Assembly (NCBI GenBank): GCA_003167555.1
Contig: PMSN01000011.1
Span: forward strand, 434,001 to 498,000
Direction: 5' to 3'
DNA from: Spartobacteria bacterium
GTDB taxonomy: Bacteria; Verrucomicrobiota; Verrucomicrobiia; Chthoniobacterales; UBA10450
Length of the DNA: 64,000 nt
Under the pieces are notes generated by a model, which was given only the letters and a program-made list of their open reading frames with translations, made no database searches and had not been told where the DNA came from. The position numbers and the translations under genes are program-made. The number at the start of each line of letters is the position of its first letter. The first letter of the stretch is position 1. Of this stretch, positions 45,551 through 64,000 are shown one piece after another.

Positions 45551-47065
45551 ATGAGCAGGCGCATTCTTCCCTTCATTTCTCTTCTTGGCCTGGCGACCTT
45601 TTGTTCGGCCGAACCGGCCACCGTCGGCAAACAAACGCGCGCCTGGCGCGCACAACATGAGAAGGAAATCCTCGCGGAGTTCGCGGACCTTTTAGCGATC
45701 CCAAACATCGCGGGCGACCGGCCGAACATTGAGCGCAACGTGAAAGCGATCCGCGCGCTGTTGGAAAAGCGCGGCATCGCGGTGCAGGTCCTCACGATCG
45801 ACGGCGCGTCACCGATCGTGGTGGGAGATGTTCGTGTTCCGGAATCTCACCGGACCATCGCCTTCTACGCGCACTATGATGGGCAGCCGGTCGACGCGTC
45901 GCGCTGGACGAGCGATCCGTGGAAGCCGGTGATGCGGGATGGCAACGCGCGGGAAGTCGAGTGGCGCGCGGCGAAGTCGATCGATCCCGAGTGGCGCCTT
46001 TACGCGCGCTCTTCCGGCGACGACAAAACGCCGATCATCGGAATGCTGGCCGCGCTCGACGCGTTGCATGCTGCTGGGATGAAACCAGCCGTCAATCTTC
46101 GCTTCATCTTCGAAGGTGAAGAAGAAGCCGGTTCACCGCACCTCGCCGATTACCTGACGAAATATCCCGAACAATTGCGCCCGACGGCGTGGATACTTTG
46201 CGACGGGCCGGTCCATCAAAGCCGGCGGATGGAACTTTCCTTCGGCGCGAGGGGTACGCTGGGACTCGACCTAACGACCTTCGGGCCGGTGAAAGGTTTG
46301 CATGACGGTCATTACGGAAACTGGGTGCCGAATCCGATCGTTAGGTTAACGCACCTGCTAGACTCGATGCGGGACGAGAACGGCAAAATTCTGATCGCCG
46401 GATTTTACGATGACGTGAAAGCACCCACGGAATCGGAACGTGCCGCGCTCGCCAGAATTCCGGACGTTGAGCCTGCGTTGCGCCGCGAATTCCAGATCGC
46501 CGCGACGGAGGGCGACGCGAAACCATTGAATGACTTGCTGATGCTTCCCGCCTTGAATGTCCGCGGCATCGAGTCGGGTCACGTGGGTGCGGACGCATCG
46601 AACACCATTCAGACCGAAGCTCACGCCTCGATCGATTTCCGTCTCGTTCCACCGGAAACACCTGAATCGGTGAAAGCGCTCGTCGAGCGGCACATTGAGT
46701 CGCAAGGCTACAAGATTGTGCGCGAGCCGCCGGATTCGTCCATGCGGCTTCAGCATCCGAAGATTGTGAAAGTCGCATGGGGCAGTGGTTATCCGCCGGG
46801 CCGGACCGCGCTCGATCTTCCTCTCTCGCTGGAAATCGCTGAGATCATGACGAAGGCGGGCCACGAACCGATCCGTCTCCCGACCGCGGGTGGCAGCATT
46901 CCAATGTATCTGTTTCAACAGCCGAACAACACGCCGGTGATCGGTTTGCCGATCGCAAATCACGACGACAATCAACACGCCGCCGACGAGAACATCCGCC
47001 TGCAAAATCTTTGGGACGGGATCGAAGTCTTCGCGTGTCTCTTCACGCATTTAGGCGCTGACTGA
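45551..47065 (+). CDS. Exported M20-family metallopeptidase
   Basis: 504 residues with a signal peptide (RRILPFISLLGLATFCSAE). The M20 metal site is visible: AFYAHYDGQPV (first metal His, catalytic Asp), ARSSGDDKTPI (bridging Asp), FEGEEEAGSPHL (catalytic and metal Glu), ILCDGPV and, at the end, GLPIANHDDNQHAADENIRL (second metal His). A dimerisation lid lies between. Such enzymes cleave dipeptides or remove acyl groups from amino acids. It shares a transcript with the cyclophilin, and 38 bases later the response regulator begins. Confidence 0.93.
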   Translation: MSRRILPFISLLGLATFCSAEPATVGKQTRAWRAQHEKEILAEFADLLAIPNIAGDRPNIERNVKAIRALLEKRGIAVQVLTIDGASPIVVGDVRVPESHRTIAFYAHYDGQPVDASRWTSDPWKPVMRDGNAREVEWRAAKSIDPEWRLYARSSGDDKTPIIGMLAALDALHAAGMKPAVNLRFIFEGEEEAGSPHLADYLTKYPEQLRPTAWILCDGPVHQSRRMELSFGARGTLGLDLTTFGPVKGLHDGHYGNWVPNPIVRLTHLLDSMRDENGKILIAGFYDDVKAPTESERAALARIPDVEPALRREFQIAATEGDAKPLNDLLMLPALNVRGIESGHVGADASNTIQTEAHASIDFRLVPPETPESVKALVERHIESQGYKIVREPPDSSMRLQHPKIVKVAWGSGYPPGRTALDLPLSLEIAEIMTKAGHEPIRLPTAGGSIPMYLFQQPNNTPVIGLPIANHDDNQHAADENIRLQNLWDGIEVFACLFTHLGAD

Positions 47066-47103: not shown

Positions 47104-48450
47104 ATGAGCAGGATCCTGATCGCGGACGACCAGAGTGATGTGCTGGAAGCGTTGCGCATTTTGCTCAAGGGCGAAGGGCATCAGACCGACTCGGTGACTT
47201 CGCTCGCAGGGATTTTCCAATCGCTCGAGAAACGCGATTACGCGCTGCTCATCATGGATCTCAATTACACGCGCGACACGACTTCGGGTCAGGAAGGACT
47301 CGAGGTCATCCCGCGGATTCAAGCGGTCGACAACACGCTGCCAATCGTGGTCATGACGGCGTGGGCGACGATCGATCTCGCGGTGGAAGCGATGAAACGC
47401 GGCGCGCGCGATTTTATTCCGAAGCCGTGGGACAACGAGCGGCTGCTCTCGATCGTGCGCACCCAGATCGAGCTGGCGGGCGCGCTGCGCAAAGGCCGGC
47501 GCCTCGAGGCGGCGAATCAATTGTTGCGGGGCAACGCGCCGAACATCATCGCCGAATCGCCGCGAATGCGGCCGGTGCTGGAACTGATTTCGCGGGTCGC
47601 GCCGTCGGACGCGAACGTGCTCATCACGGGCGAGAACGGGACGGGCAAGGGCCTGGTTGCGCGCGCGCTGCATGCGCTTTCGCAGCGGGCGTCGCATAGC
47701 ATGATCACGGTGAACATGGGCGGGTTGTCCGAGGGGATTTTCGAGAGCGAATTGTTCGGCCACGTGAAGGGCGCGTTCACCGATGCGAAGACGGACCGCG
47801 CCGGGCGGTTCGAGCTGGCGGACGAGAGCACGCTCTTCATGGACGAGATCGCGAACGTGCCGATGAATCAGCAGGCGAAATTATTGCGCGTGATAGAGAC
47901 AGGCGAGTTCGAGCGCGTCGGTTCTTCGAAAACGTTGCATGCGAACGTGCGGATCGTTTCCGCGACGAATTCGAATGCGCACGAGGAAGTGGCCGCGGGC
48001 CGGTTCCGGCAGGACCTGCTCTTTCGCTTGAACACGATCGAGATCGCGCTGCCGCCTTTGCGCGAGCGGCGCGAAGACATTATGCCGCTGGCGAATAATT
48101 TTCTCCGCCAGCACGCGAAGCGTTACCGGAAAACACTGACCGGGTTCGAAGAAGCGGCGCGCGATGTTTTGATGCAGCATCAGTTCCCGGGGAATGTCCG
48201 CGAGCTCGATCACGTGGTGGAGCGCGCCGTCCTGATGACGCAAGGCCAACAGGTGAAGGCGAACGATCTTGGCCTAACGAGTGGAAGAGACGACTCGCCG
48301 CGCCTCGAAGATATGAGTCTCGAGGAAGTGGAATCGTTCCTGATCAAGAAGGCGCTTTCCCGCTTCGACGGCAACGCGCGCAAGGCCGCGGAAGCGTTGG
48401 GGCTGAGCCGGAGCGCGTTTTATCGACGGCTTCAGCAGTATGGACTCTAG
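47104..48450 (+). CDS. NtrC-family sigma-54-dependent response regulator
   Basis: 448 residues with three domains. The receiver (1-120) has acidic DD at 8-9, phospho-acceptor Asp52 in LLIMDLNYT, the Thr in VVMTAW and Lys in PKPW. The AAA+ domain (about 150-375) has Walker A GENGTGKG at 176-183, Walker B STLFMDEIA, and the sigma-54 loop at 223-228, which reads GAFTDA instead of GAFTGA. The C-terminal Fis-type helix-turn-helix is RKAAEALGLSRSAFYRRLQ. It should activate RpoN promoters when phosphorylated by the kinase encoded 45 bases downstream. A perfect sigma-54 promoter lies at 51327. Confidence 0.95.
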   Translation: MSRILIADDQSDVLEALRILLKGEGHQTDSVTSLAGIFQSLEKRDYALLIMDLNYTRDTTSGQEGLEVIPRIQAVDNTLPIVVMTAWATIDLAVEAMKRGARDFIPKPWDNERLLSIVRTQIELAGALRKGRRLEAANQLLRGNAPNIIAESPRMRPVLELISRVAPSDANVLITGENGTGKGLVARALHALSQRASHSMITVNMGGLSEGIFESELFGHVKGAFTDAKTDRAGRFELADESTLFMDEIANVPMNQQAKLLRVIETGEFERVGSSKTLHANVRIVSATNSNAHEEVAAGRFRQDLLFRLNTIEIALPPLRERREDIMPLANNFLRQHAKRYRKTLTGFEEAARDVLMQHQFPGNVRELDHVVERAVLMTQGQQVKANDLGLTSGRDDSPRLEDMSLEEVESFLIKKALSRFDGNARKAAEALGLSRSAFYRRLQQYGL

Positions 48451-48495: not shown

Positions 48496-49827
48496 ATGAA
48501 ACCTGTCAAGAAACTGCGTCATCGGCTGACGCACGAAGGCCGGCTGAGCTGGCTCACGCTGGCGGCGGCGGCGCCGGCGCTCCTCGTCGCGCTTGTTCTC
48601 CTCTGGTTCGGCGATCACACGGCGAAAGTGCAATGGACGCTCACGCTCTTGATCGCGGGTTTCGGACTGGGCTTTCTTCTCAGCGCGCGCGAACACGTCA
48701 TCCGACCGCTCCAGACAATGACGAACCTGCTCGCCGCGTTACGCGAGGGTGATTATTCCATTCGGGCCCGCGGTGCGCGCGTCGATGACGCTCTCGGCGA
48801 GGCGCTGCTGGAAATAAATGCGCTGGGCGAAACGCTCCGCTTGCAGCGCCTCGGCGCATTCGAAGCGACCGCGCTGCTGCGAACGATCATGGCCGAAATC
48901 GACGTGGCTGTTTTCACCTTCGATCCCGAGCGGCGTCTGCGTTTGGTCAATCGCGCGGGCGAGGATCTGTTGGGACAGCCGATGGACAAATTGCTCGGCC
49001 GCCGCGCGAAGGACCTTGGACTGGAAGTTTGTTTGGACGCGGACCAGGATGCGCCGTTGACGCTCAGTTTTCCGGGAGGCTCGGGACGCTGGGGCGTGCG
49101 CCGAAGTTCTTTCCGCGAACGCGGGCTGCCGCACGAACTGCTCGTGTTGACGGATCTCAGCCGCACCCTCCGCGAAGAGGAGCGCAATGCGTGGCAGAGA
49201 CTCGTGCGCGTGATCGGGCACGAGATGAATAATTCGCTCGCGCCGATCAAATCCATCGCGGGCAGTCTGGAGAGTTTGATCCGGCGCGATCCGCCGCCGG
49301 CCGATTGGCGCGACGATGCCCGGAGCGGATTGAATATCATCGCGACGCGCGCGGAATCGCTCAGCCGTTTCATGCAGGCTTATGCGCGGCTGGCGCGCCT
49401 GCCTCCGCCGCAAAAGGAAACGATCGATCTGGGTGAACTGGTGAGACGCGTGGCTTCTCTCGAGACCCGGCTTCCGGTGCGAGTCGTGCCAGCGCCGGAC
49501 GTGACAATCCAAGGCGACGCGGCGCAGTTGGAACAATTGTTGATTAACATTCTGCACAACGCCGCGGAAGCTTCGCTGGAAACGGCCGGGACGGTGACGA
49601 CCGGCTGGCGCGACATGGTGGAATGCGTGGAAGTTTTTGTCCGCGACACTGGGCCGGGCATCATGAATCCGACAAATTTGTTCGTTCCATTTTTCACGAC
49701 GAAACCGGGTGGCTCAGGAATTGGTCTGGCCCTGAGCAGGCAAATCGCGGAAGCGCATGGCGGTTCTTTGACGCTGGTGAATCGGGTCGGGCCCGGTTGC
49801 GAAGCGCTCTTGCGTCTGCCGAAGTAA
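48496..49827 (+). CDS. Membrane sensor histidine kinase (NtrY-like)
   Basis: 443 residues. Two N-terminal helices (LTLAAAAPALLVALVLLWF, TLTLLIAGFGLGFLLSA) have hardly any loop between them, so sensing is probably in the membrane or cytoplasm. A HAMP segment (IRPLQTMTNLLAALREGDYS) follows, then a PAS-like domain (DVAVFTFDPERRLRLVNRAGEDLLG). The dimerisation helix has His242 in VIGHEMNNSLAPIKS, and the ATPase has LINILHNAAEAS, RDTGPGI, FFTTKPGGSGIGLALSRQIAEAHGG. It is the partner of the NtrC-type regulator upstream. A repeat and an IS remnant follow its stop. Confidence 0.93.
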   Translation: MKPVKKLRHRLTHEGRLSWLTLAAAAPALLVALVLLWFGDHTAKVQWTLTLLIAGFGLGFLLSAREHVIRPLQTMTNLLAALREGDYSIRARGARVDDALGEALLEINALGETLRLQRLGAFEATALLRTIMAEIDVAVFTFDPERRLRLVNRAGEDLLGQPMDKLLGRRAKDLGLEVCLDADQDAPLTLSFPGGSGRWGVRRSSFRERGLPHELLVLTDLSRTLREEERNAWQRLVRVIGHEMNNSLAPIKSIAGSLESLIRRDPPPADWRDDARSGLNIIATRAESLSRFMQAYARLARLPPPQKETIDLGELVRRVASLETRLPVRVVPAPDVTIQGDAAQLEQLLINILHNAAEASLETAGTVTTGWRDMVECVEVFVRDTGPGIMNPTNLFVPFFTTKPGGSGIGLALSRQIAEAHGGSLTLVNRVGPGCEALLRLPK

Positions 49828-49942: not shown

Positions 49943-50071
49943 GATTATCATCTGGACGAGCTTGAGCATCGGTTTAACAATCGGACAAATAAATATCTGT
50001 TTCGGGAGACGCTCTTGAAATTGGTAAAGGCTGAGAAGTTGCCATACGCAGAACTCACGAAGGCAGCTTAG
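49943..50071 (+). pseudogene. C-terminal remnant of an IS1595/ISXO2-type transposase
   Basis: A 42-codon frame reads DYHLDELEHRFNNRTNKYLF followed by RETLLKLVKAEKLPYAELTKAA and a TAG. This fits the C-terminal signature of IS1595-family DDE transposases (HLDE-x-x-RFNNR-x-x-x-LF-x-TL-x-x-LV-x-x-x-x-L-Y-x-LT). The catalytic domain, the start and the left end of the element are gone; the repeat at 49837-49929 takes their place. The last 17 bases overlap the end of the convergent gene 50055-51137. Confidence 0.7.
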
Positions 50072-51137
50072 ACCTAAGCTCGCTAATTATGCGGGTTAGA
50101 TATGCCGCAATCGCATGTAGACGGTCGCAAGGCTCACTGCGGGTGCGAGACCATTCTTCTTTGTCGTCAGCGGTGAAATCCTCGGGAAACTCAACCACTC
50201 GTGCGGGAGGCGGCATCTTAACGATCTCGTTAAATCGATCGACATATTCTGGAGTAGTCTTGCGAAGGAACTGTCGAATCTTTTCGAATAGGTCGTTTTG
50301 TTCTGCCAACGGCAGAGGCGAGGCCAAACAGGCGAATACATCAAGCAGCGAATGCACCTCAAACAGAAACTCAGTCAGAGATTCAATTGGAGTCTTGTTT
50401 TCGTCGCCAGTTAATCCTTTGATCTTCGCGATAAGCTCACCTAGGCGTTTTACTCGCCCCCACAGAAATCTGAGTGTCGAGCACTGCTCGTTTGTTGCAT
50501 TGTCGAGACACGCGTGTTCTCGGAGCACTCTTTCTATTCTTTGGCAGTCAGCAAAATTCCAATTCTCTTTGAATTTGGCCCAATCCTGAAGGGAGATATG
50601 GTCTTCAAGTATTTCTTGCTTAACAGATGCTATCGCCTTGTCGTTCCATGCGACTGCTTCCGTGAACCTCGGAAGTGTTGCTCCTTTGCACTGGAATAAT
50701 GTCGCCATGTGGTTGCCTTCCGTATAAAGTGCGTCCAATTCGTCTAAGGCGATAATTAGCGGATTGTGTCGTGCCTGCTGTAAAGCAGCGCTCTCTTCCT
50801 CTAATTCTCTGATTCGCGCTAGCGCGGCGGCTAACCTGCGCTTCGGAATCGCATAGAAACATTGGACAAAAAACACTCCGGCAAACAGCGCAAAAGTTGC
50901 AAGCAAGCCCCATCCAGCACCGCTTAACGCGCGCATCATATCGTCCTTGGATTGCGCGCCGAACTGCCATTCCAACCACGCGCCGAGACCGGGGCCAAGT
51001 AGCGCACAAATAAACGCTGGAACTCGGTTCTCGATAACGAAGTGCCACGCACATTTGAGCGACTCTCGGCAAAGGGTCGCAAAGTATTTATCCACGACTT
51101 CGCCGGAGGCGGGTTGTGAGCTTTGTTTCTGGGGCAT
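50055..51137 (-). CDS. Membrane-anchored coiled-coil protein of unknown function
   Basis: 360 residues from ATG 51137 (MPQKQSSQPASGEVVDKYF). Two membrane helices lie at about 28-55 and 70-92 (VPAFICALLGPGLGAW, LLATFALFAGVFFVQCFYA). A coiled coil follows (RLAAALARIRELEEESAALQ), then a helical cytoplasmic domain with several Cys and Trp (LQDWAKFKENWNFADCQRIE, LRFLWGRVKRLGELIAK). No known motif is found. The gene is visibly less GC-rich than its neighbours, which suggests recent acquisition. It lies between the two-component system and the operon that the system probably controls, on the opposite strand. The frame opens at 51290, but that start would cover the palindrome at 51210 of the divergent operon. 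Confidence 0.7.
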   Translation of the reverse strand: MPQKQSSQPASGEVVDKYFATLCRESLKCAWHFVIENRVPAFICALLGPGLGAWLEWQFGAQSKDDMMRALSGAGWGLLATFALFAGVFFVQCFYAIPKRRLAAALARIRELEEESAALQQARHNPLIIALDELDALYTEGNHMATLFQCKGATLPRFTEAVAWNDKAIASVKQEILEDHISLQDWAKFKENWNFADCQRIERVLREHACLDNATNEQCSTLRFLWGRVKRLGELIAKIKGLTGDENKTPIESLTEFLFEVHSLLDVFACLASPLPLAEQNDLFEKIRQFLRKTTPEYVDRFNEIVKMPPPARVVEFPEDFTADDKEEWSRTRSEPCDRLHAIAAYLTRIISELRSKLPS

Positions 51138-51209
51138 CGGGCTTTTCTCTCCGATGAGAACGCTCGCATTGCTGCGGGTTGCGTCAAAGGCATAATCCCG
51201 CCCAGTTTC

Positions 51210-51229
51210 CTGTCCCACAATCGGGACAG
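51210..51229 (+). promoter_or_regulatory. Candidate activator site for the NtrC-type regulator
   Basis: CTGTCCC (51210-51216) and GGGACAG (51223-51229) form a perfect 7-base inverted repeat with a 6-base spacer. Its centre lies about 130 bases before the inferred start of transcription at 51353, a normal distance for the binding site of a sigma-54 activator. Confidence 0.55.
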
Positions 51230-51326
51230 TGGAATCCCACAAGCGAAGCTTTTCCGGGTCGACGGCGTTTTCAACGCTCGTTCCAAACACGTAACTGCGA
51301 GTGTGTTAGGACTTTGTTTCCACCCG

Positions 51327-51342
51327 TGGCACGGCCATTGCA
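51327..51342 (+). promoter_or_regulatory. Sigma-54 (RpoN) -24/-12 promoter
   Basis: TGGCACGGCCATTGCA matches the consensus TGGCACG-N4-TTGC at every fixed base. The GG doublet is at 51328-51329 and the GC at 51340-51341, twelve bases apart as required. Transcription should begin near 51353, 64 bases before the first gene of the adaptor-ATPase-permease operon. An NtrC-type activator is encoded nearby. Confidence 0.85.
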
Positions 51343-51416
51343 ATAGCTTCGCCGCGACAAGACAAAATTTGAATCCAAACGAGATGCGGACCGCATCTCA
51401 CAGGAAAGACAAGAAT

Positions 51417-51731
51417 ATGAAATCACCCATCCAGTTCAACGAAAAGAGTCGCCGCGATTCAAACGAGCGCGGCGCACGTGGACACTCCGCGTTCCCGAAA
51501 ACGGACTGCAACTATCACGCCGCCTCGATTTCGAACGTGGGCGGTCGCTGCTTCGGCTCGCGCCGGCCGTCGTTCCGTTCCATCAGCCAGGATTATTTTA
51601 AGAACGAAGCGCGCCAGAGTTATGCGGGCGAAGCCGCTCTGTTTTGCGTGATTGTGTTGACAGCCGCGTTGCCTTTGCTCGACAGCGCGCAGGCTCTCGT
51701 GCAGTTGGTTCGCTCCGTCGGAGTTCTTTAA
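51417..51731 (+). CDS. Small membrane protein, first gene of the efflux operon
   Basis: 104 residues from ATG 51417, preceded by AGGAAAG at a good distance. The N-terminal 70 residues are polar (SPIQFNEKSRRDSNERGARG, ASISNVGGRCFGSRRPSFRS). Near the C-terminus is one hydrophobic helix (AALFCVIVLTAALPLLDSAQ). I recognise no family. It begins 64 bases after the predicted sigma-54 start, and the adaptor gene starts 91 bases after its stop, so it may be an accessory subunit or regulator of the transporter. The frame is open upstream but passes over the promoter. Confidence 0.65.
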   Translation: MKSPIQFNEKSRRDSNERGARGHSAFPKTDCNYHAASISNVGGRCFGSRRPSFRSISQDYFKNEARQSYAGEAALFCVIVLTAALPLLDSAQALVQLVRSVGVL

Positions 51732-51822
51732 GCAAGCGATCACCGCGATGAGACAAAGCTCGGAAGTGAAGGCTGAAACTACTATTGTGCGGCCGAGTGG
51801 CTTTACTCATAGCACCTCAAGT

Positions 51823-53076
51823 ATGGATATTGCCCGGCCGAATGTAGCCAAGAAGAAACGTCAACGCCGGATCATGATCGTCGCGGCGGCGGTGCTGGCG
51901 CTAATCGTCATTACGTTCGGGCTTTCCCGGCTCAAGCCGGCCGTGCCAAGCGTCGATCGCTCGACTGTCTGGATCGACACGGTGAAGCGCGGGCCGATGG
52001 TGCGCCAGGTCCGCGGCCTCGGGACGCTGGTGCCGGTGGATATACGTTGGATCGCCGCCAACACTGATGGTCGCGTCGAAACCATCGTGGTTTGGCCTGG
52101 CACGGCGGTGCAAGCCGACACCGTGATTTTGGAATTGACCAGCCCGGAACTCGAACAAGCGGCTGGCGATGCGGAATCGAAAGCGAAAGCGGTGGAAGCG
52201 GAACTCACCACTTTACGTGCGACGCTTCAGCGCGAGGTGCTCGATCAGGAATCGACCACCGCGCGCGTCCATTCCGAATACGAACAAGCCAAGATGGAGC
52301 GGCAGACCAACGATCAGTTGGCCAAGAATGGCCTCGTGGCTGATCTCGTTTACAAGACGTCGAAAGTGAAGGAGGCGGAACTGGCCAACCGTGACGCGAT
52401 TGAGACGAAGCGGCTGGCGTTTTCACACGACTCGATCGACCCGCAAATCGCCTCGAAACAAGCCGCGGTCGATCAAGCCAAGGAGTTCGCGAGACTAAAA
52501 TCGGATCAAGTCCAGCAGCTCCATGTGAAAGCTGGCATGAACGGCGTCTTGCAGCAGTTGCCGGTGCAAATCGGGCAACGCGTCAAACCCGGCGATAACC
52601 TGGCGCGCGTGGCTGATCCCACCAAGCTCAAGGCGCAGGTCAAGATCGCGGAAACGCAGGCGAAAGATATTCAAACCAACCAGGTCGCCTCGATCGATAC
52701 GCGGAATGGAATCGTCGCGGGCCATGTGATTCGGGTCGATCCCGCCGTCGAGCAGGGGACCGTGACCGTGGACGTGGGCATCGACGGCGAACTGCCGAAA
52801 GGTGCGCGCCCGGATCTTAGTGTAGACGGAACGATCGAGCTGGAACGTCTAGATAATGTGATCTACGTCGGCCGCCCCGCCTTTGGCCAGGAGAATAACA
52901 CGGTCGGCATTTTCAAATTGGTCGCAGGCACTTCCGAAGCGGTCCGCACGCCGGTGAAACTCGGCCGCAGTTCCGTGAACACGATCGAGATCCTGAGCGG
53001 TCTGGAACCCGGCGATCAAGTCATTCTATCCGACACCAGCTCAATGGACGCTCACGAACGAATTCGCCTTAACTAA
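51823..53076 (+). CDS. MacA/HlyD-type periplasmic adaptor
   Basis: 417 residues from ATG 51823 (MDIARPNVAKKKRQRR). A membrane anchor (MIVAAAVLALIVITFGLSRL) is followed by the barrel and lipoyl-like half (GLGTLVPVDIRWIAANTDGRVETIVVWPGTAVQADTVI), a helical hairpin of about 100 residues (SPELEQAAGDAESKAKAVEAEL to EFARLKSDQVQ), the second lipoyl half (VKAGMNGVLQQLPVQIGQRVKPGDNLARVAD) and a membrane-proximal end (GLEPGDQVILSDTSSMDAHERI). It links the inner-membrane MacB-type permeases to an outer-membrane exit duct. The frame also allows ATG 51748, which would precede the anchor by 25 more residues. Confidence 0.9.
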   Translation: MDIARPNVAKKKRQRRIMIVAAAVLALIVITFGLSRLKPAVPSVDRSTVWIDTVKRGPMVRQVRGLGTLVPVDIRWIAANTDGRVETIVVWPGTAVQADTVILELTSPELEQAAGDAESKAKAVEAELTTLRATLQREVLDQESTTARVHSEYEQAKMERQTNDQLAKNGLVADLVYKTSKVKEAELANRDAIETKRLAFSHDSIDPQIASKQAAVDQAKEFARLKSDQVQQLHVKAGMNGVLQQLPVQIGQRVKPGDNLARVADPTKLKAQVKIAETQAKDIQTNQVASIDTRNGIVAGHVIRVDPAVEQGTVTVDVGIDGELPKGARPDLSVDGTIELERLDNVIYVGRPAFGQENNTVGIFKLVAGTSEAVRTPVKLGRSSVNTIEILSGLEPGDQVILSDTSSMDAHERIRLN

Positions 53077-53115: not shown

Positions 53116-53859
<744 letters not shown>

Positions 53860-53911: not shown

Positions 53912-56329
53912 ATGTTACGAGATCTTAGATATGCCTGTCGGATGCTCGTAAAAACTCCGGGGTTTACGATTATCTCGGTTCTGGCGGTCGCGCTCGGAAT
54001 TGGCGCGTCGACGACGATGTTCTCGGCGATCAACGCACTCCTCCTCCGGCCGATGCCTTTGATGCAGGACCAGGAGCGGCTCGTCGCCGTTTCGGAGTTT
54101 TTCCAAAAGAAGGCTGACCAGGATGCCGGGACGGCGTTCCCGGATTACCTGGAGTGGAAGAAGAACGTAACCACGCTCGATGGAATCGCCGCGATCCAGG
54201 AGGCGACCTTCATCGTTTCCGGCGGCGACAAGCCGGAGCGTTACCTCGGCGGGCAAATCTCCGCCGATGCGTTTTCTTTCATGGGCGTGCAGCCGATCCT
54301 GGGCCGGCTATTTCGTCCTGAAGAAGACCAGCTCAACGCCCCGCCCGTCGCGCTGATCGGGTACGAGATCTGGCAGAATCATTTCGGTGGCGATCGCGGT
54401 GTCGTCGGCAAAACAATCCCGATCAACGGCAAGCAGGTGACGATCATCGGCGTCATGCCGAAGGGTTGGCGTTTCCCGGAAATTTGCGACCTCTGGATGC
54501 CGCTCCAGATGGATGAGAAAGATAATCCGCGCGGCAACTTCTTTCTCGATTGCATCGGGAAGGTGAAGCAAGGCGTCTCGATCGAACAGGCGCGCGCGGA
54601 ATTGGAAGCGATCACCGCGCGCCTTGCCGTACAACATCCGGAGACGAACACTGGCGTTGGTGTGCACGTGACGCCGTTTCGCGAAGAGATGGTCCGGAAC
54701 TTTAAGACACTTACGCTCCTCGTGATGGGCGCGGTGCTTTTCGTGCACCTCATCGCGTGCGCGAATGTCGCGAATCTGTTGCTCGCGCGTGGCGCAACCC
54801 GGGCCAAGGAGATCGGGATTCGTCTCGCGTTGGGTGCGAGCCGGCGCCAGATCGTGCGCCAACTCTTGGCCGAAAGCATTGTGCTTGGCATGGTCGGCAG
54901 CGCCCTCGGTTTGCTCTTCGCCGTCTGGGGCGTGGATCTGATGCTGACCGCGCTTCCGAACGAAGTGCCTTTCTGGCTCCGCTTTGATTTTGATTGGAGA
55001 ATTTTCTCTTTTGCGCTCGGGATCGGCGCGCTCTCCAGCGTTCTCTTTGGTTTGTTGCCGGCCCTTCAAGCCTCGCATCCCCATTTGGTTGACACGCTCA
55101 AGGAAGGCGGCCGTACGGGCGCCGGCGGCGCGAAAGGTCAGCGCGTGCGTAACTCACTCGTCATCGCGGAGGTCGCTCTCGCTTTGGTGTTATTGATTGG
55201 CGCCGGCCTGATGATGCGCAGTTTCTTAAAGCTGCAGAAGACCGACATCGGCATGGATCCCTCGAGCACGTTGACCTTTCGGGTCGGCTTGCCCGAAGCG
55301 CAATTTCCAGAAAAAGAAGGCCCGGCGCGTTTCTTCGAACAGCTTATTCCAAGGCTGGCGAATTTGCCGGGAGTGGAATCCGCAGGCGCGACAACCTCGT
55401 TGCCGGCGTCGGGAAACATCGGAGTCACTGCCTTTATCTTGGAAGGTGAGCCGGAACCCAAACAACTCCAGGATGCCCGCACCATGCGCCAGTTAACTGT
55501 TACGCCGGGCTACTTCCAAACGGCGCGCATCCCTCTCCTGCGCGGTCGAGATTTCACCGGTGCGGACACCAAGGATGCACCGCGCGTGGTGTTGATCGAT
55601 GAAGATGGCGCCCGGGCCTGGTTTCCCAATCAGGATCCGATTGGCCGGCAGTTGCGCGCGCTCGATAAACAGGGCGAACCACCCAAGTGGGCGACGATCG
55701 TAGGAATCGTTAGGCCGGTCGTCTACGACGTCTTGATCAAGAGGCGTCCCATGCCGGCAGTTTATTTCGCGCAGAATCAGGCGTCGGACCGTTTCCTCTC
55801 GGTCATGATTCGCACGAAGAGCGATCCCGCGAAATTCGCGAACCTCGCCCGCAATACCGTCCTAGCCGTGAACAAGGATCTGCCGATCTACCGTGTTTTC
55901 ACCATGGATGAGATCGTCGCGCAATCGTACTGGAGCCGGAGATTTTTCGGCACGCTCTTCACCGTCTTTGCCGGGCTGGCGCTTTTCCTCGCGTCGCTCG
56001 GGATCTACGGCGTGATGTCTTACTCGGTTCGGCAACGGACGCAGGAAATCGGAGTGCGAATGGCGCTCGGCGCGCAAACGAGCGATGTCTTGCGGCTCGT
56101 CACCGGCCAGGGACTGCGGCTCATTTTGACCGGGCTCGCGATCGGCTTTGTCAGCGCTTATTTTCTGACGAAACTGCTGGCCGGAAGCCTGCACGGAATT
56201 TCGGCGCACGATCCGCCGAGCTTCGCCCTGGTGCCATTGCTCTTGTTCGTGGTGGGCTTGGCGGCCTGTTACCTGCCGGCGCGCGCCGCCATGCGTTTGG
56301 ATCCAATGGAAGCACTCCGGTATGAGTGA
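53912..56329 (+). CDS. ADOP/MacB-type ABC permease 1 (no prefix domain)
   Basis: 805 residues that begin directly at the permease (LRDLRYACRMLVKTPGFTIISVLAVALGIG); the prefix of the PadR-linked copies is absent. A MacB_PCD domain precedes the first FtsX module ([32 protein letters not shown]). A second extracytoplasmic domain (MDPSSTLTFRVGLPEAQFPE) and FtsX module follow ([26 protein letters not shown]), ending YLPARAAMRLDPMEALRYE. It works with the ATPases and adaptor of this operon in exporting an unknown compound. The next permease starts 19 bases later. Confidence 0.93.
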   Translation: MLRDLRYACRMLVKTPGFTIISVLAVALGIGASTTMFSAINALLLRPMPLMQDQERLVAVSEFFQKKADQDAGTAFPDYLEWKKNVTTLDGIAAIQEATFIVSGGDKPERYLGGQISADAFSFMGVQPILGRLFRPEEDQLNAPPVALIGYEIWQNHFGGDRGVVGKTIPINGKQVTIIGVMPKGWRFPEICDLWMPLQMDEKDNPRGNFFLDCIGKVKQGVSIEQARAELEAITARLAVQHPETNTGVGVHVTPFREEMVRNFKTLTLLVMGAVLFVHLIACANVANLLLARGATRAKEIGIRLALGASRRQIVRQLLAESIVLGMVGSALGLLFAVWGVDLMLTALPNEVPFWLRFDFDWRIFSFALGIGALSSVLFGLLPALQASHPHLVDTLKEGGRTGAGGAKGQRVRNSLVIAEVALALVLLIGAGLMMRSFLKLQKTDIGMDPSSTLTFRVGLPEAQFPEKEGPARFFEQLIPRLANLPGVESAGATTSLPASGNIGVTAFILEGEPEPKQLQDARTMRQLTVTPGYFQTARIPLLRGRDFTGADTKDAPRVVLIDEDGARAWFPNQDPIGRQLRALDKQGEPPKWATIVGIVRPVVYDVLIKRRPMPAVYFAQNQASDRFLSVMIRTKSDPAKFANLARNTVLAVNKDLPIYRVFTMDEIVAQSYWSRRFFGTLFTVFAGLALFLASLGIYGVMSYSVRQRTQEIGVRMALGAQTSDVLRLVTGQGLRLILTGLAIGFVSAYFLTKLLAGSLHGISAHDPPSFALVPLLLFVVGLAACYLPARAAMRLDPMEALRYE

Positions 56330-56348: not shown

Positions 56349-58802
56349 ATGCTGCAAGATATCCGCCTGGCCTTCCGCAGCCTGGTCAATACCCCGGGCT
56401 TCACTTTTGTTGCCATCATCACCGTCGCACTCGCGATCGGGGCGAACACCACCGTGTTCAGCCTTGTCAACGCGCTTTTGCTTCGCCCGCTGCCTTACAA
56501 GAATCCGCAGGAGCTTGTCCTCTTGTGGGAGAAATTTTCCGCGCAAGGTCTGGACCAGATCCCGGTCTCCGCACCGGAGTATCTCGATTACGAAAAGGAG
56601 TTGAAGAGTCTGGAGATCGCGGGCTTTGATTACGTCGATCTCAATCTCACCGTCGGTGAAATTCCCGAGCGGATCGCGGGCGCCGTGGTGACCCCGAGTG
56701 TGTTTCCAGTACTCGGCGTGGAGCCGATTCGCGGACGCGCCTTTACCAAAAGCGAATTTGGCGAGGGCAACGACAGCGTAGTCGTAGTCAGCGAGCGTCT
56801 TTGGAAACGCCGGTTCAATTCCGATCCCGAATTCGTCGGAAAGCAGCTCTCGCTCAACGGACGCAGCTTCACCGTCATCGGGATCATGTCGGAGGGTTTC
56901 CAGTTTCCGCTGCCCTTATTCAATGTGCAGGGTGGCACGTTCGGACAGCAGGTCGATATCTGGAAACCGATTGCCTTTAGCAAAAACGATTTGGAATCGC
57001 GTGGTTCGCGCAGTTATGGCATTGTCGGCCGGCTCAAGCCGGGTGTGTCGCTCTCACAGGCGCAGGCGGAAGTCGATACCGTCATCGCAAGTTGGCTGCC
57101 GAGATTTCCCGATAACTATGAGCCTGCAACTCGCTTCGGTGGCACGCTCTACAAATTTCACGATCAGGTGGTTGGTGGAATGCGAACAGCGCTCGTCATT
57201 CTTCTCGGTGCGGTTGCGCTCGTTCTCCTGATCGCCTGCGCGAATCTGACCACCATGCTGCTCGCGCGGGCCGGAGCGCGGGAACGCGAATTCGCCATCC
57301 GGGTTGCGCTCGGCGCGGGTCCGGCGCGTTTGCTGCGGCAGATGCTCACCGAAAGCGTTTTGCTGGCACTCATCGGCGGACTTGCCGGCGTGCTTCTCGC
57401 CATCTGGGGATTGGATTTGCTCCGCGCCCTCGGTTCGCACACCGTCCCGCGGATTGCCGAAGCGAATCTTGATCTGCGCGTGCTTCTCGTAACGCTGGTT
57501 GCCTCCATTGTTACCGGCATTCTCTTTGGCCTCGTGCCCGCGCTCGCCAGCGCTAAACCTGAGCTGACCGAAGCGCTCAAGGAAGGTGGCCGCGGTTCCA
57601 CCACAGGGACACGGCGCAACCGCGTCCGCAATGCTCTTGTTATTTCCGAAGTCGCGCTCGCGCTCGTCCTGCTCGTGGGCGCGGGTCTTTTGCTCAAGAG
57701 CTTCGCTCGCCTGCAAAATGTCGATCCGGGATTCGATCCACGGAACGTGCTCTCGATGGAGATCTCATTGCCGGTGGCGAAGTATCCGCGCGGCAAACCG
57801 GTCACGGATTTTTATGCGGAGATAATCCGGCGGGTGCAGGCCCTGCCCGGTGTCGAAGCGACCGCCTTTACCTCGATTCTTCCGCTGAGCGGAACTAACA
57901 GTGACAGCTCCTTTGCGATCGAGGGCCGCGACCCCATGCAGGAGAAAGTTTACCCGGACGAAGAGATTCGCAGTGTGACCTCGAGCTATTTCAAAGTCTT
58001 GAAGGTCCCGCTGGTCCAGGGGCGCTTTTTTGATGAACGCGACACGGCGGACGCGCCGCAGGTCGTCATCATCAATCAGGCCTTGGCCAGGAAATGGTTC
58101 CCCAATCAGGAAGCGGTCGGCAAGAAAATCACATTCAGCGATCCGCGAAAACCCGATCCGAAGTGGATAACCATTGTGGGTCTGGTCGGCGACATGCGTC
58201 ACCGCGGCCTCGATGTCGAAGCGAAGCCCGAATATTATCTGCCGCATCCGCAGAACCCGTATCGCGGGATGATTCTCGCCGTCCGCAGCAAACAGGATCC
58301 GCGCTCCCTGGCAGAATCGATTCGACGCGAGATCCGCCGGCTCGATCCCGAATTGCCGGCGGCGAATGTCCGCACACTCGAAAACGTCGCGGCAGACTCC
58401 ATCGCGCCGCGCCGGCTTTCTGTCGTTCTTATCGGTGTCTTTGCCGCGGTCGCGTTGGTCCTGGCATCTGTCGGCATCTACGGCGTGATGTCATTCCTCG
58501 TTGTCCAACGCACGCATGAGATCGGCGTGCGCATGGCGCTCGGCGCGCAACGTGCCGATGTGCTCCGCCTTGTCGTGGGTCACGGGATGAGACTTGTCTT
58601 GATCGGCAGCGTGCTAGGACTCGTAATGGCACTCCTCTCCACCCGCGCGCTGAGCGCGATGCTCTATCGTGTCGGCGCGTTCGATCTCACCACGTTTGCC
58701 GGTGTGACGATCGCCCTCGCCCTGGTTGCGTTGCTGGCGAGCTATATCCCCGCTCTGCGCGCCACGCGGGCGGATCCAATGATCGCCCTGGGTCACGGAT
58801 GA
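56349..58802 (+). CDS. ADOP/MacB-type ABC permease 2
   Basis: 817 residues of the same two-module layout: LAFRSLVNTPGFTFVAIITVALAIGANTTVFSL at the start, first FtsX block LIACANLTTMLLARAGAREREFAIRVALG, end [26 protein letters not shown] and SYIPALRATRADPMIALGHG. The extracytoplasmic loops differ clearly from permease 1, so it is not a recent copy. The start is 19 bases after the preceding stop. The substrate is unknown. Confidence 0.93.
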   Translation: MLQDIRLAFRSLVNTPGFTFVAIITVALAIGANTTVFSLVNALLLRPLPYKNPQELVLLWEKFSAQGLDQIPVSAPEYLDYEKELKSLEIAGFDYVDLNLTVGEIPERIAGAVVTPSVFPVLGVEPIRGRAFTKSEFGEGNDSVVVVSERLWKRRFNSDPEFVGKQLSLNGRSFTVIGIMSEGFQFPLPLFNVQGGTFGQQVDIWKPIAFSKNDLESRGSRSYGIVGRLKPGVSLSQAQAEVDTVIASWLPRFPDNYEPATRFGGTLYKFHDQVVGGMRTALVILLGAVALVLLIACANLTTMLLARAGAREREFAIRVALGAGPARLLRQMLTESVLLALIGGLAGVLLAIWGLDLLRALGSHTVPRIAEANLDLRVLLVTLVASIVTGILFGLVPALASAKPELTEALKEGGRGSTTGTRRNRVRNALVISEVALALVLLVGAGLLLKSFARLQNVDPGFDPRNVLSMEISLPVAKYPRGKPVTDFYAEIIRRVQALPGVEATAFTSILPLSGTNSDSSFAIEGRDPMQEKVYPDEEIRSVTSSYFKVLKVPLVQGRFFDERDTADAPQVVIINQALARKWFPNQEAVGKKITFSDPRKPDPKWITIVGLVGDMRHRGLDVEAKPEYYLPHPQNPYRGMILAVRSKQDPRSLAESIRREIRRLDPELPAANVRTLENVAADSIAPRRLSVVLIGVFAAVALVLASVGIYGVMSFLVVQRTHEIGVRMALGAQRADVLRLVVGHGMRLVLIGSVLGLVMALLSTRALSAMLYRVGAFDLTTFAGVTIALALVALLASYIPALRATRADPMIALGHG

Positions 58803-58893: not shown

Positions 58894-61335
58894 ATGAACA
58901 CTCTCCTTCAAGACCTCCGTTACGGCTTTCGAATGCTGCTGAAGCACAAAGGCTTCACCGCCATTGCCGTGATCGCGCTGGGTCTCGGGATCGGCGCGAA
59001 CACCGCGATCTTTAGCCTGGTGAACGGCGTTCTCCTCCGGCCGCTGCCGTTTCCGGACGCCGAACGCATCATCTACATCGAAGGAAAAAATCCTGCGGCG
59101 GCGGGCATTACCGAGAGCAACATCTCGTTTCTCGACTTTACGGATTGGTCGCAACAAACCGATCTCTTCGCGAGCACCGCCGCCTACTGGACCGGTACCG
59201 CCAACTTTGGTGCGGATGGGGCGGAGCCGGAACGCGTGCCGCGCGCCGGTGTGACGACTGGGTTCTTCTCTGTGCTCGGGGTCCAGCCTGTTCTCGGGCG
59301 AACGTTCGTTCCCGAAGACGACAAAGGGTGGCCGCAAAGCGTCGCGATCATCAGCCACGGATTATGGAAGCGCCGCTTCGGATCTGATCCGGCCATCGTC
59401 GGGAAACAGGTCCAGATGAGCTCAAGATCCCTCACGATCATCGGCGTGATGCCCTCGGGGTTTGAATACCCGGAGCAAACCCAAGTTTGGGTGCCGACCG
59501 CGGTCAATCTCTCGGACGAACCGCGCGATAACCGCGTGTGGTCGGCGATCGCGCGTCTGAATACCGGCATCGATCTGAAGCAGGCGCAGACTCGTCTGAG
59601 CGCCATCAATGCGCAGCTCGACAAGCAGTTTCACGAGACGAACAAAGGTTGGGACGTGTTTCTTTCGACGCTCCACGAACGGTTCGTTCGCGAGGTAAAA
59701 CCATCCCTCCTTGCGCTCCTCGGCGCCGTCGGATTCGTGCTGCTGATTGCCTGCGCGAACGTGGCCAATCTCCTCCTCGCCCGCAGCGCCGCGCGGCAAA
59801 AGGAAATTGCGATCCGGGCCGCGATGGGCGCGAGCCGCACGCGCGTTCTTCGGCAGATGCTGACCGAGAGCATTCTACTCTCGGCGATCGGCGGAATTGC
59901 GGGACTCGTCCTTAGTATTTGGTTAACCGATCTGCTGATGTCGATGTTGCCCGAAGGCGCACCGCGGCTCGAACAGATCGGGATTGATTATCGCGTCCTG
60001 ACGTTCGCTCTCGGCGTCTCGGCGCTTACCGGCATTCTCTTCGGCATCGTCCCCGCGCTCCAAGCCTCGAAGCTCGACGTCACCAGCGCATTGAAAGAAG
60101 GCGGACGCAGCGGCGAAGGTCATCGCCGCACCGGCGCGCGCAGCCTCCTGTTGATTGGTGAGGTCGCCCTCTCGCTGATGCTGCTGGTTGGCGCTGGATT
60201 GCTCATCAAGAGCTTCCTCCGTCTTCAGGAGGTGCGGCCCGGCTTCAATGCGCACAACGTCCTCATCGCCAACCTGGCGTTGCAGGGTCCGAAATACAAA
60301 GATGACCAGCCGTGCGTGGAATTTTTCCGGCAACTGAAAGAACGGCTGGAAGCGGTGCCGGGCGTGCAAGCGGCGGGAGGCAGCGTCAATCTTCCGCTCA
60401 ACGCGAGCGGTTATGCGATTGGACGCGGGTTTATTCCGGAAGGCCGGCCGCTCACGGTGGATGAATCGAAAGACGCGATGTTCTCCACCATCACTGGCGA
60501 TTATTTTCGCGCCTTGCAAATTCCTTTGCTTTCGGGACGCACCTTCGAACCTCGCGACAATGCTGACGGACCGAAGGTGGTAATCATCAACGAAACCACC
60601 GCGAAGCGTCATTTCGGTTCGCCCACAGCCGCGATCGGCAAACGCCTCAGCATCTGGTCTGCATTTCGAGGGCATCGCCGCGATGAAAAATTCATGCGCG
60701 AAATTGTCGGGGTGGTCGGGGACACGAAGACCGGTTCTCTTACCGGCGAGGGCGGCGCGCAAATCTACGTTCCACACGCCCAGGACTCGCAGTGGAATTT
60801 CATGGGGCTCGTGATTCGAACCGCCGGCGATCCGGCTGCCTTTGCTACCACCTTGCGACGCGAAGTGCAGGCGCTCGACAAGGATCAGCCAATCTACAAC
60901 GTCCGGACGATGGACGATGTCGTCGCGAACTCGTTAGGCACGCGGCGCGTGTCGATGCAGCTCTTTGCGGTTTTTGCCTGCGCCGCCTTGCTCCTCGCCG
61001 CGCTCGGGATTTACGGCGTGATGGCCTACTCGGTCACGCAACGCACCCAGGAAATCGGCATTCGCATGGCGCTCGGCGCCCAGAAATCGGACGTGCTCGC
61101 GCTCGTGATCCGCCAAGGCATGATGCTGACCGTGATCGGCGTGGTTGTCGGCCTGGCGGGAGCGTTCGCCCTTACGCGCTTGATGGCCAACCTTCTCTTC
61201 GGAGTAGCAGCGACCGATTCGTTGACCTTCGTCGCAATTCCGTTCTTGCTCCTCTTCGTGGCGCTGGTTGCTTGTTATTTACCAGCCCGGCGCGCGGCTC
61301 GCCTCGATCCGACCATCGCGCTCGCGCAAAGCTAA
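58894..61335 (+). CDS. ADOP/MacB-type ABC permease 3
   Basis: 813 residues: [37 protein letters not shown], first FtsX block [35 protein letters not shown], second block [30 protein letters not shown], end [19 protein letters not shown]. The second extracytoplasmic domain is longer than in the others near 595 ([20 protein letters not shown]). A gap of 91 bases separates it from permease 2; I see no gene or hairpin there. The second ATPase starts 6 bases after its stop, so they are tightly coupled. Confidence 0.93.
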
Positions 61336-61341
61336 CCAGTT

Positions 61342-62010
61342 ATGTCTATGATCACGCTCAAACACCTCGAACGTTTCTATCCGCTCGCGAAAGGGAAATT
61401 CTTTTACGTCCTGCGCGACATCAACCTGGAGGTGAACGAAGGCGACTTCGTTTCCATCATGGGGCCATCGGGCGCGGGCAAGTCGTCCCTGCTCCACGTC
61501 ATCGGAATGCACGACCATGCCTGGAGCGGCGAATACTTCTTTGAGGACGATCCGATTCACACCCTCAAGCCCAAGGAACGCGCCACCCTTCGGAACGAGA
61601 GGATCGGTTTCGTTTTTCAGAACTATCACCTGCTGGATGATCTCACCGTCTACGAGAACCTGGACATTCCGCTTTCCTACCGGCACGTAAACAAAGCCGG
61701 GCGCGATTCGATTGTCTGCGACGCGCTGGATCGGTTTCACATCGTGGGAAAGAAGGACCTCTACCCGCGTCAGCTCTCCGGCGGACAGCAGCAACTCGTC
61801 AGCATCGCCCGCGCGATGATCGCGAACCCGAAGCTGATCCTGGCCGACGAGCCGACCGGCAATCTTCACTCCAGCCAGGGTCAGGAGATCATGGAGATGT
61901 TCAAGACCTTGAATGCTGGCGGCACGACGATCATTCAAGTAACGCATTCAGACGTTAACGCTGCGTATGGAAACCGCATCATCCAGCTTCGGGATGGCTT
62001 TGTGGTGTGA
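61342..62010 (+). CDS. ABC ATPase, second copy with altered D-loop
   Basis: 222 residues. Walker A is GPSGAGKSS (41-49; Ser in the last place), Q-loop [18 protein letters not shown], signature [15 protein letters not shown], Walker [12 protein letters not shown]. The D-loop reads NLHSSQG where the usual text is NLDS. The H-loop VTHSD is intact. It probably serves permeases 3 and 4, which flank it. It could start at Met3 (61348) instead. An inverted-repeat element follows the stop. Confidence 0.93.
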
Positions 62011-62136: not shown

Positions 62137-64000
62137 ATGCTAACTGACCTCAAATACGTATTGCGGATGCTGATCAAAGCCCCAACGTTCGCGGCCATCG
62201 CCGTTCTAACTCTCGCCCTGGGCATCGGAGCCAACAGCGCGATTTTTAGTGTCGTCGACACGGTTCTGCTTCGGCCTTTGCCCTTCAAGGATCCGAACCA
62301 AATCGTGATGGCGTGGGCACGCTACGTAAATGACAGCGAATACGGGCGCGGGGTCCACTCGTTTCCCGACTACGTCGATCTGCGCGACCAGAGCCAGAGC
62401 TTCTCCGGAATGGCGGCTTATACCAGGACAGCGGGCACTCTGGCGCAGGCCGATGACGCGCAGGCACTCGAAGGCGTCGCGATCACGCCCGAGATCTTCG
62501 ACGTGCTGGGACTTCGGCCCTTGCTCGGTCGCGGCTTTACGCAAGAAGAAGCCAAGGATCAAGGGGAGCGCGTCCTTGTCCTGACCTACCCGCTGTGGCA
62601 ACGCGCTTTCGGCGGCGATCCCAAGATTGTCGGGCAGCAAGTTACCCTGTCTGGCCGCAGTTTCACCGTCATCGGCGTGATGCCAACAGGGTGGAAGTTT
62701 CCGATCGAAGACGAGCACATCGATTATGTGATTCCTTTGCAATACCTCACCGCTTCCGCACTGATCAATCGCGGTTCGCATTTTCTCAGCGTGGTCGGGC
62801 GGCTGAAGCCGGGCGTCCAGATTCGACAGGCGGAAGCGGAACTGAGCGCGATCGCCGGACGGTTGTCGAAGCAGTATCCCGATACGAACATGAATTTCAC
62901 ATCGGTGGCCGTCGCGACGCTGCATTCCGATATCGTCGGCGATGTTCGTCCGGCGTTGATCATTTTGCTCGGCGCCGTAGCTCTCGTACTTTTGATTGCG
63001 TGCGCGAATGTAGCTAATCTTCTTCTCGCCCGCGCGGCCTCGCGCAGCCGCGAGATCGCGATCCGCACTGCGCTTGGCGCCAGCCGCCTGCGCGTTATTC
63101 GGCAGTTACTTTGCGAAAGCCTGTTGCTGGCGCTGATGGGCGGGACCGCTGGATTGTTGCTGGCGGGGTGGGGCGTGGATCTTCTTGGTGCGGCCGGCGC
63201 ACAAGGCCTTCCGCACATCGCCCAGATCAAAGTTAACTTCACTGTAGCCGCATTTACCTTTGCGCTCGCAATTGGCAGCACCGTCCTGTTCGGACTTATC
63301 CCCGCGCTCCAGGTTTCGCGGCCAAGCGTGAATGAGTCTCTCCAGCAAGGCGCGAAAGGATCGACCGGCGGCTTGCATACCAATCGGCTCCGCGGCTTTC
63401 TCGTCGTCTCTCAGGTTTCCCTTTCACTCCTCCTGCTGGCCGGTGCGGGGTTGTTGATCAAAAGCTTCTTTAATCTTCGCGCGACGAATCCCGGTTTCGA
63501 TCCGGTGAAGCTGATGACGATGCAGCTAACGCTGCCCAGAGTGCGATACCCCGACCTGGATCAGCAGATCCGCGCGCATGACGCGATTATGGAGAAAATC
63601 TCGACCATTCCCGGGGTGGAATCCGCCGGCGGCGTGAATCCACTGCCGCTGGCTGGGAATATTAGCAATTTGTCGTTCATGGTTAGTGGAGCGGCGCCCC
63701 TGCCGCGCGGCAACCATCCCGGCGCCGGTTACCTCATCGTTAAGCCTGACTACTTCCAGGCGATGAAAATTCCCGTGCTGCAAGGCCGCGCCTTTACCCG
63801 CGTGGACACGAAAGACTCCCCCTTGGTCGTCATGATCAATGAAGCATTCGTCCGCAAACATTTCCCGGATCGGAACCCGATTGGTCAACGAGTGATGATC
63901 GATCGCGGCGAGGGCAAGGCGCCGCCGTGTGAGGTAGTGGGTGTCGTGGGCAATTCGCGGCACGACTCGCTGGCCGCGCCGCCCGGACCGGAGATGTACG
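62137..64000 (+). CDS. ADOP/MacB-type ABC permease 4, N-terminal part (cut by window edge)
   Basis: About 621 codons from ATG 62137 to the right edge. It starts [20 protein letters not shown] and continues into TM1 ([19 protein letters not shown]), the extracytoplasmic domain ([20 protein letters not shown]) and the first FtsX block ([35 protein letters not shown]). The second extracytoplasmic domain is entered before the edge ([17 protein letters not shown]). It carries no prefix domain. The 126 bases upstream hold an inverted repeat but no other gene, so it is probably part of the same transcript. Translation is by eye. Confidence 0.9.

Follow-up and report, generated by a model that had tools for sequence, protein, structure and literature searches.

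A conserved sigma-54-type control region next to a kinase-activator pair probably drives a MacB-like exporter operon in Chthoniobacterales

The window analysed here, a stretch of 64,000 nucleotides, comes from a soil bacterium of the Verrucomicrobiota, order Chthoniobacterales, whose genome measures 4.2 Mb. Its plus strand carries an exporter operon that opens with a gene encoding a 104-residue protein with one transmembrane (TM) segment (51417–51731), conserved in the cassette. It is followed by a periplasmic adaptor of the membrane fusion type (RND_mfp or MacA-like, 51748–53076; PF16576, and TIGR01730 above its cut-off) and an ABC ATPase resembling LolD, MacB and DarD (53116–53859; PF00005, with the best NCBIfam match, NF038007, below cut-off). 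Downstream of these are three ADOP permeases at 53912–56329, 56349–58802 and 58894–61335, scoring 945, 986 and 987 bits against TIGR03434 (cut-off 622), a second ABC ATPase (61342–62010; PF00005) and a fourth ADOP permease (62137–64000) that is cut by the window edge and was recognised by tblastn on L182/L183. Permeases 5 and 6 were found by tblastn beyond the window. An earlier note on this DNA had described an adaptor, ATPases and four permeases; the adaptor and the ATPases stand, whereas the permeases number six and the first gene is that of the small protein. Of the components of a MacAB-TolC-like pump, the cassette has adaptor, ATPase and permease; no outer-membrane channel (OEP) gene was found in it, and all ten OEP matches in this genome map to other contigs. 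The small protein gave no match in a Pfam search. It follows the pattern MKPT...PSFR.IS..YFK.EAR...EA..F and is 35–70 percent identical across Chthoniobacterales, and short TM proteins also lie behind the promoter described below at other loci (L163, L172, L239).

The same strand encodes an NtrC-family response regulator, the presumed activator (47104–48450), and a sensor histidine kinase (48496–49827), in agreement with the earlier note, which had placed an NtrC-type regulator and a kinase about 3 kb away; Pfam confirmed the domains. The activator has the receiver, sigma-54 AAA+ and Fis helix-turn-helix domains that define the NtrC family of enhancer-binding proteins (PF00072, PF00158, PF25601, PF02954). 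Its score against the NtrC equivalog TIGR01818 is 362 bits, below the cut-off of 559, and the best NCBIfam matches, AtoC and NtrC, are likewise below cut-off and uninformative; the ZraR model also scores below cut-off. Its sigma-54 contact loop is GAFTDA, a form shared by each of the 26 Verrucomicrobiota members scored, and by 31/31 when Acidobacteriota and Gemmatimonadota are counted in, unlike the GAFTGA carried by five paralogs in the same genome. GAFTDA also occurs in most Bacteroidota homologs of the activator. It departs from the exact canonical form but counts as a working variant: PMC4641369 lists it, together with target promoters, among those that should still activate, and treats Desulfovibrio activators carrying it as functional. 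The kinase (PF02518, PF13188) combines a PAS and a HATPase domain with two TM helices, which hydropathy alone places at residues 20–38 and 45–63, about 6 residues apart; by this predicted topology it falls among intramembrane-sensing kinases, which have two TM helices and a loop shorter than about 25 residues. The activator gene is preceded, at a distance of 38 bp, by the end of a gene for a predicted secreted peptidase (45551–47065, by inspection M20-like), and the two are possibly co-transcribed.

Between the kinase gene and the promoter, a divergent frame of 411 codons occupies the minus strand (50055–51290 at its longest) and probably starts at ATG 51139. This frame has no match in Pfam or NCBIfam and is missing from the kinase-promoter gap in relatives; it is probably an insertion.

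The pattern TGGCACG-N4-TTGC has a single exact match in the 64 kb, TGGCACGGCCATTGC at 51327–51341 (+), where the chance expectation for both strands is 128000/4^11 = 0.03. The earlier note had reported all fixed bases at this position and put the chance of an 11-base exact match at a few percent, and both statements held. When up to two mismatches are allowed, the pattern shows no enrichment in the 64 kb (22 found vs 28 expected). The site agrees with the sigma-54 class (TGGCAC-N5-TTGC, with the -24 GG and -12 GC at canonical spacing) and is conserved: TGGCA...TTGC is kept in 34/34 non-redundant promoters before the same operon. As these 34 had been picked by their sigma-54 site, we judged its conservation from the adaptor loci instead: wherever a Chthoniobacterales locus reached far enough upstream, a sigma-54 site was the top-scoring one before the adaptor. 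The genome has one rpoN gene (PF04552, E 1.4e-58). Transcription from this promoter would start near 51352. In the leader, TTTGAATCCAA is found at 51368–51378, about 27 bp past the sigma-54 site, and at a similar place in most relatives.

Upstream of the promoter lies the palindrome CTGTCCC-ACAATC-GGGACAG (51210–51229), putative activator site 1, which occurs once in the whole 4.2 Mb genome. About 4 dyads with 7-bp arms and exactly this spacing are expected by chance per 64 kb, so that a lone dyad of this kind is unremarkable and the evidence for the palindrome is its conserved position. The earlier note had placed the palindrome at the right distance upstream, had proposed a search for CTGTCCC-N6-GGGACAG in related genomes, and had counted its absence from orthologous loci as a refutation. 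Every orthologous locus has the palindrome in its core form, at a fixed distance from the sigma-54 site; the exact 14-base form is in none of the other genomes among the 83 of the family. We therefore dropped the exact form as the conserved unit and used the core, GTCCC-N6-GGGAC (51212–51227), which is present in 34/34 non-redundant orthologous promoters (27 exact, 7 with one mismatch) and starts 114 or 115 bp upstream of the TGG. The outer CT/AG varies among relatives. Of 86-base windows drawn at random from these loci, 1.2 percent reach one mismatch or fewer to the core, and these are partly the promoters themselves.

A second putative activator site, TCCCACAAGCGAAGC at 51235–51249, had been overlooked. 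Within it (TCCCACAAGCG), the TCCC lies exactly 22 bp downstream of the TCCC of site 1 and is invariant in 34/34 promoters, and the CG is kept in 33–34 of them. Aligned side by side, the upstream sequences share the block GTCCC(A/G)(N)AAnCGGGAC-N7-TCCCACAAnCG, and downstream of both sites the information content of the 34 promoters drops to background.

Loci found by their adaptor and regulator orthologs share one order: regulator, kinase, promoter, small protein, adaptor, ATPase, ADOP permeases. The dyad pattern by itself had a notable background, with 13 of 19 matches followed by a sigma-54 site 85–88 bp downstream; hence the sigma-54 site was added to the search pattern. The resulting composite (GTCC-N8-GGAC with a sigma-54 site at 84–112 bp) gave 68 matches in 213 genomes of the order, compared with 7 for the reversed pattern used as control, and nearly all of the 68 fall in genomes with the regulator or the adaptor. 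In the Opitutaceae-like family the composite was present in 30 of 120 genomes, vs 1 control match. Within the order, 51 genomes carry the strict promoter and, with a single exception, also a regulator or adaptor ortholog; all these counts partly reflect shared ancestry as well as function. About one third of the adaptor-bearing genomes miss the strict pattern, partly owing to one-mismatch dyads (GTTCC) or short contigs. The window genome has no further copy of the promoter pattern elsewhere.

Sorted by downstream gene, 74 distinct promoters precede the adaptor (32), an ADOP permease (10), the activator (5), ATPase-2 (4), the small protein (1), an M13 metallopeptidase (1) and other genes (21). 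Five of these 21 stand before TolC-like proteins (by inspection), one being a confirmed OEP (PF02321), and others precede short single-TM proteins. By these counts, the targets that can be recognised mostly belong to one exporter and its own controller, and the 74 promoters form one predicted regulon. The M13 target is a secreted, neprilysin-like enzyme of one relative (L143, 5222–7680; PF05649/PF01431) and points to a possible link with peptide stress. In three genomes (L191, L192, L193) the promoter is repeated between the kinase and the adaptor operon, where it precedes the gene for a conserved secreted protein about 212 residues long.

What the sequences show directly are conserved DNA elements in a fixed geometry, a kinase-activator pair linked to them, and targets that recur across genomes. 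From these we consider it highly likely that 51210–51341 comprises a sigma-54 promoter and its control sites, through which the linked pair drives the exporter operon, with binding by the 47104–48450 protein and dependence on sigma-54 as inferred parts of the model. The kinase would phosphorylate the activator, dimers of which would bind the tandem sites 51212–51227 and 51235–51249, whose 22-bp spacing corresponds to two helical turns and which lie about 110–130 bp before the predicted start. The bound activator would then assemble its AAA+ ring, and the GAFTDA loop would open the promoter at 51327–51341, yielding a transcript predicted to cover the small membrane protein, the adaptor, two ATPases and six ADOP permeases. 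It is very probable that this switch activates a large export pump of the MacB-like kind.

A very short loop between two TM helices is typical of kinases that sense the envelope within the membrane. Because the kinase has this form and in view of the exporter type, the system may be taken to sense a membrane or envelope signal, which the exporter or the small protein would perhaps pass on. It is possible, if somewhat doubtful, that the signal is instead unrelated to envelope stress (nitrogen, carbon or a specific metabolite, for example) and that the exporter serves to secrete a product and not to remove a toxic compound, which would be compatible with the same reading of the promoter. The cytoplasmic PAS domain of the kinase is consistent with such a signal, and the sub-threshold AtoC and NtrC matches are not informative; the short loop argues for the envelope, as does the regulon so far as it can be recognised, in which little appears besides the exporter, small membrane proteins and the M13 peptidase, and no nitrogen genes.

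That the dyads are bound by another regulator, either a repressor or an unrelated activator, while the neighbouring activator acts elsewhere, is improbable. A few genomes do show the promoter with no activator detected, but these are mostly fragmentary metagenome-assembled genomes, and in nearly all relatives the promoter adjoins the kinase-activator pair. In several genomes it also stands before the activator gene itself, as in autoregulation, and activators of this type usually have tandem dyads placed at a set distance from a sigma-54 site. Least likely is an RNA hairpin, a terminator or a chance dyad beside a sigma-54 site that alone matters: although a perfect dyad with 7-bp arms is by itself not improbable in 64 kb, the palindrome is followed by no T run, its position is fixed to one base in the 34 promoters and to within a few bases before unrelated genes, and another conserved site comes 22 bp on. 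On this conservation we rejected the chance and hairpin readings, which the genome-wide counts also contradict.

The promoter layout has counterparts in other phyla, where our observations are fewer and less systematic than the Verrucomicrobiota set. At acidobacterial loci with a 62 percent identical activator, TGTCC-N6-GGACA, with a second copy 21 bp on, precedes a TGG-N8-TTGCA that lies 108–110 bp from the first dyad and adjoins the adaptor start. One Gemmatimonadota locus has TCCCACAAGCGAA before the adaptor, and in two Betaproteobacteria a sigma-54 site adjoining the adaptor follows TGTCC dyads after about 80 bp. At 14 Bacteroidota loci, TGTGCG-N4-CGCACA dyads, mostly in tandem and about 21–22 bp apart, precede sigma-54 sites, and adaptor or ATPase genes follow on the same strand in 9 of the 14. 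A plausible though tentative extension is that one ancient module, consisting of a GAFTDA activator, an intramembrane-type kinase and tandem dyads spaced by about 21–22 bp ahead of a sigma-54 site, controls exporters of the MacB/FtsX type in Verrucomicrobiota, Acidobacteriota, Gemmatimonadota, Bacteroidota and some Betaproteobacteria. In that case the dyads would have diverged by lineage (GTCCC, TGTCC, TGTGCG), and the small single-TM proteins would be accessory sensors.

ADOP permeases are present in many copies in soil bacteria. In the searchable open-access PMC literature we found no regulator or binding site for them and no experimental precedent for MacB or MacAB under sigma-54/RpoN, and the transporter terms looked for in Francke et al. 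2011 (PMC3162934) were absent. A 2025 study predicted sigma-54 control computationally for FtsX-like ABC transporters (COG0577/COG1136) in Opitutia, Gammaproteobacteria and Bacteroidia, reports sigma-54 enrichment for both COGs in Opitutia and, in its accessible part, calls this the first evidence of a sigma-54 link for the family (PMC12316311). Its promoters, like ours, are predicted by computation ahead of permease and ATPase genes of the FtsX-like class; the accessible part names no activator, binding site or regulon geometry, whereas here the link also covers Chthoniobacterales and comes with a specific kinase-activator pair, which offers a candidate mechanism for that enrichment. The analysis names a pair, defines a consensus for the putative binding site and the geometry of the promoter, and lists target genes; signal and regulon are therefore directly testable, for example in cultured Opitutaceae-like relatives.

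Compared with the MacAB-TolC and darobactin-type (DarBCD) exporters, the operon shares the adaptor, the LolD/MacB-like ATPase and the MacB_PCD/FtsX permease domains. It differs from them in that no outer-membrane channel gene was found in its cassette and its permeases are long duplicated ADOP proteins, six per operon, with separate ATPases. By topology alone the kinase is like the intramembrane-sensing BceS and LiaS types, with two TM helices and almost no extracytoplasmic loop; unlike these, it has a PAS domain and a sigma-54 activator as partner. An NtrC-family two-component sigma-54 system is of a known kind, and its regulon, binding motif and pairing here appear to be undescribed. With NtrB/NtrC, AtoS/AtoC and ZraS/ZraR it shares a REC-AAA+-Fis activator, a linked kinase, tandem upstream dyads and a -24/-12 promoter, and it is set apart from them by its own dyad sequence, its GAFTDA loop and its predicted target, a MacB-like exporter.
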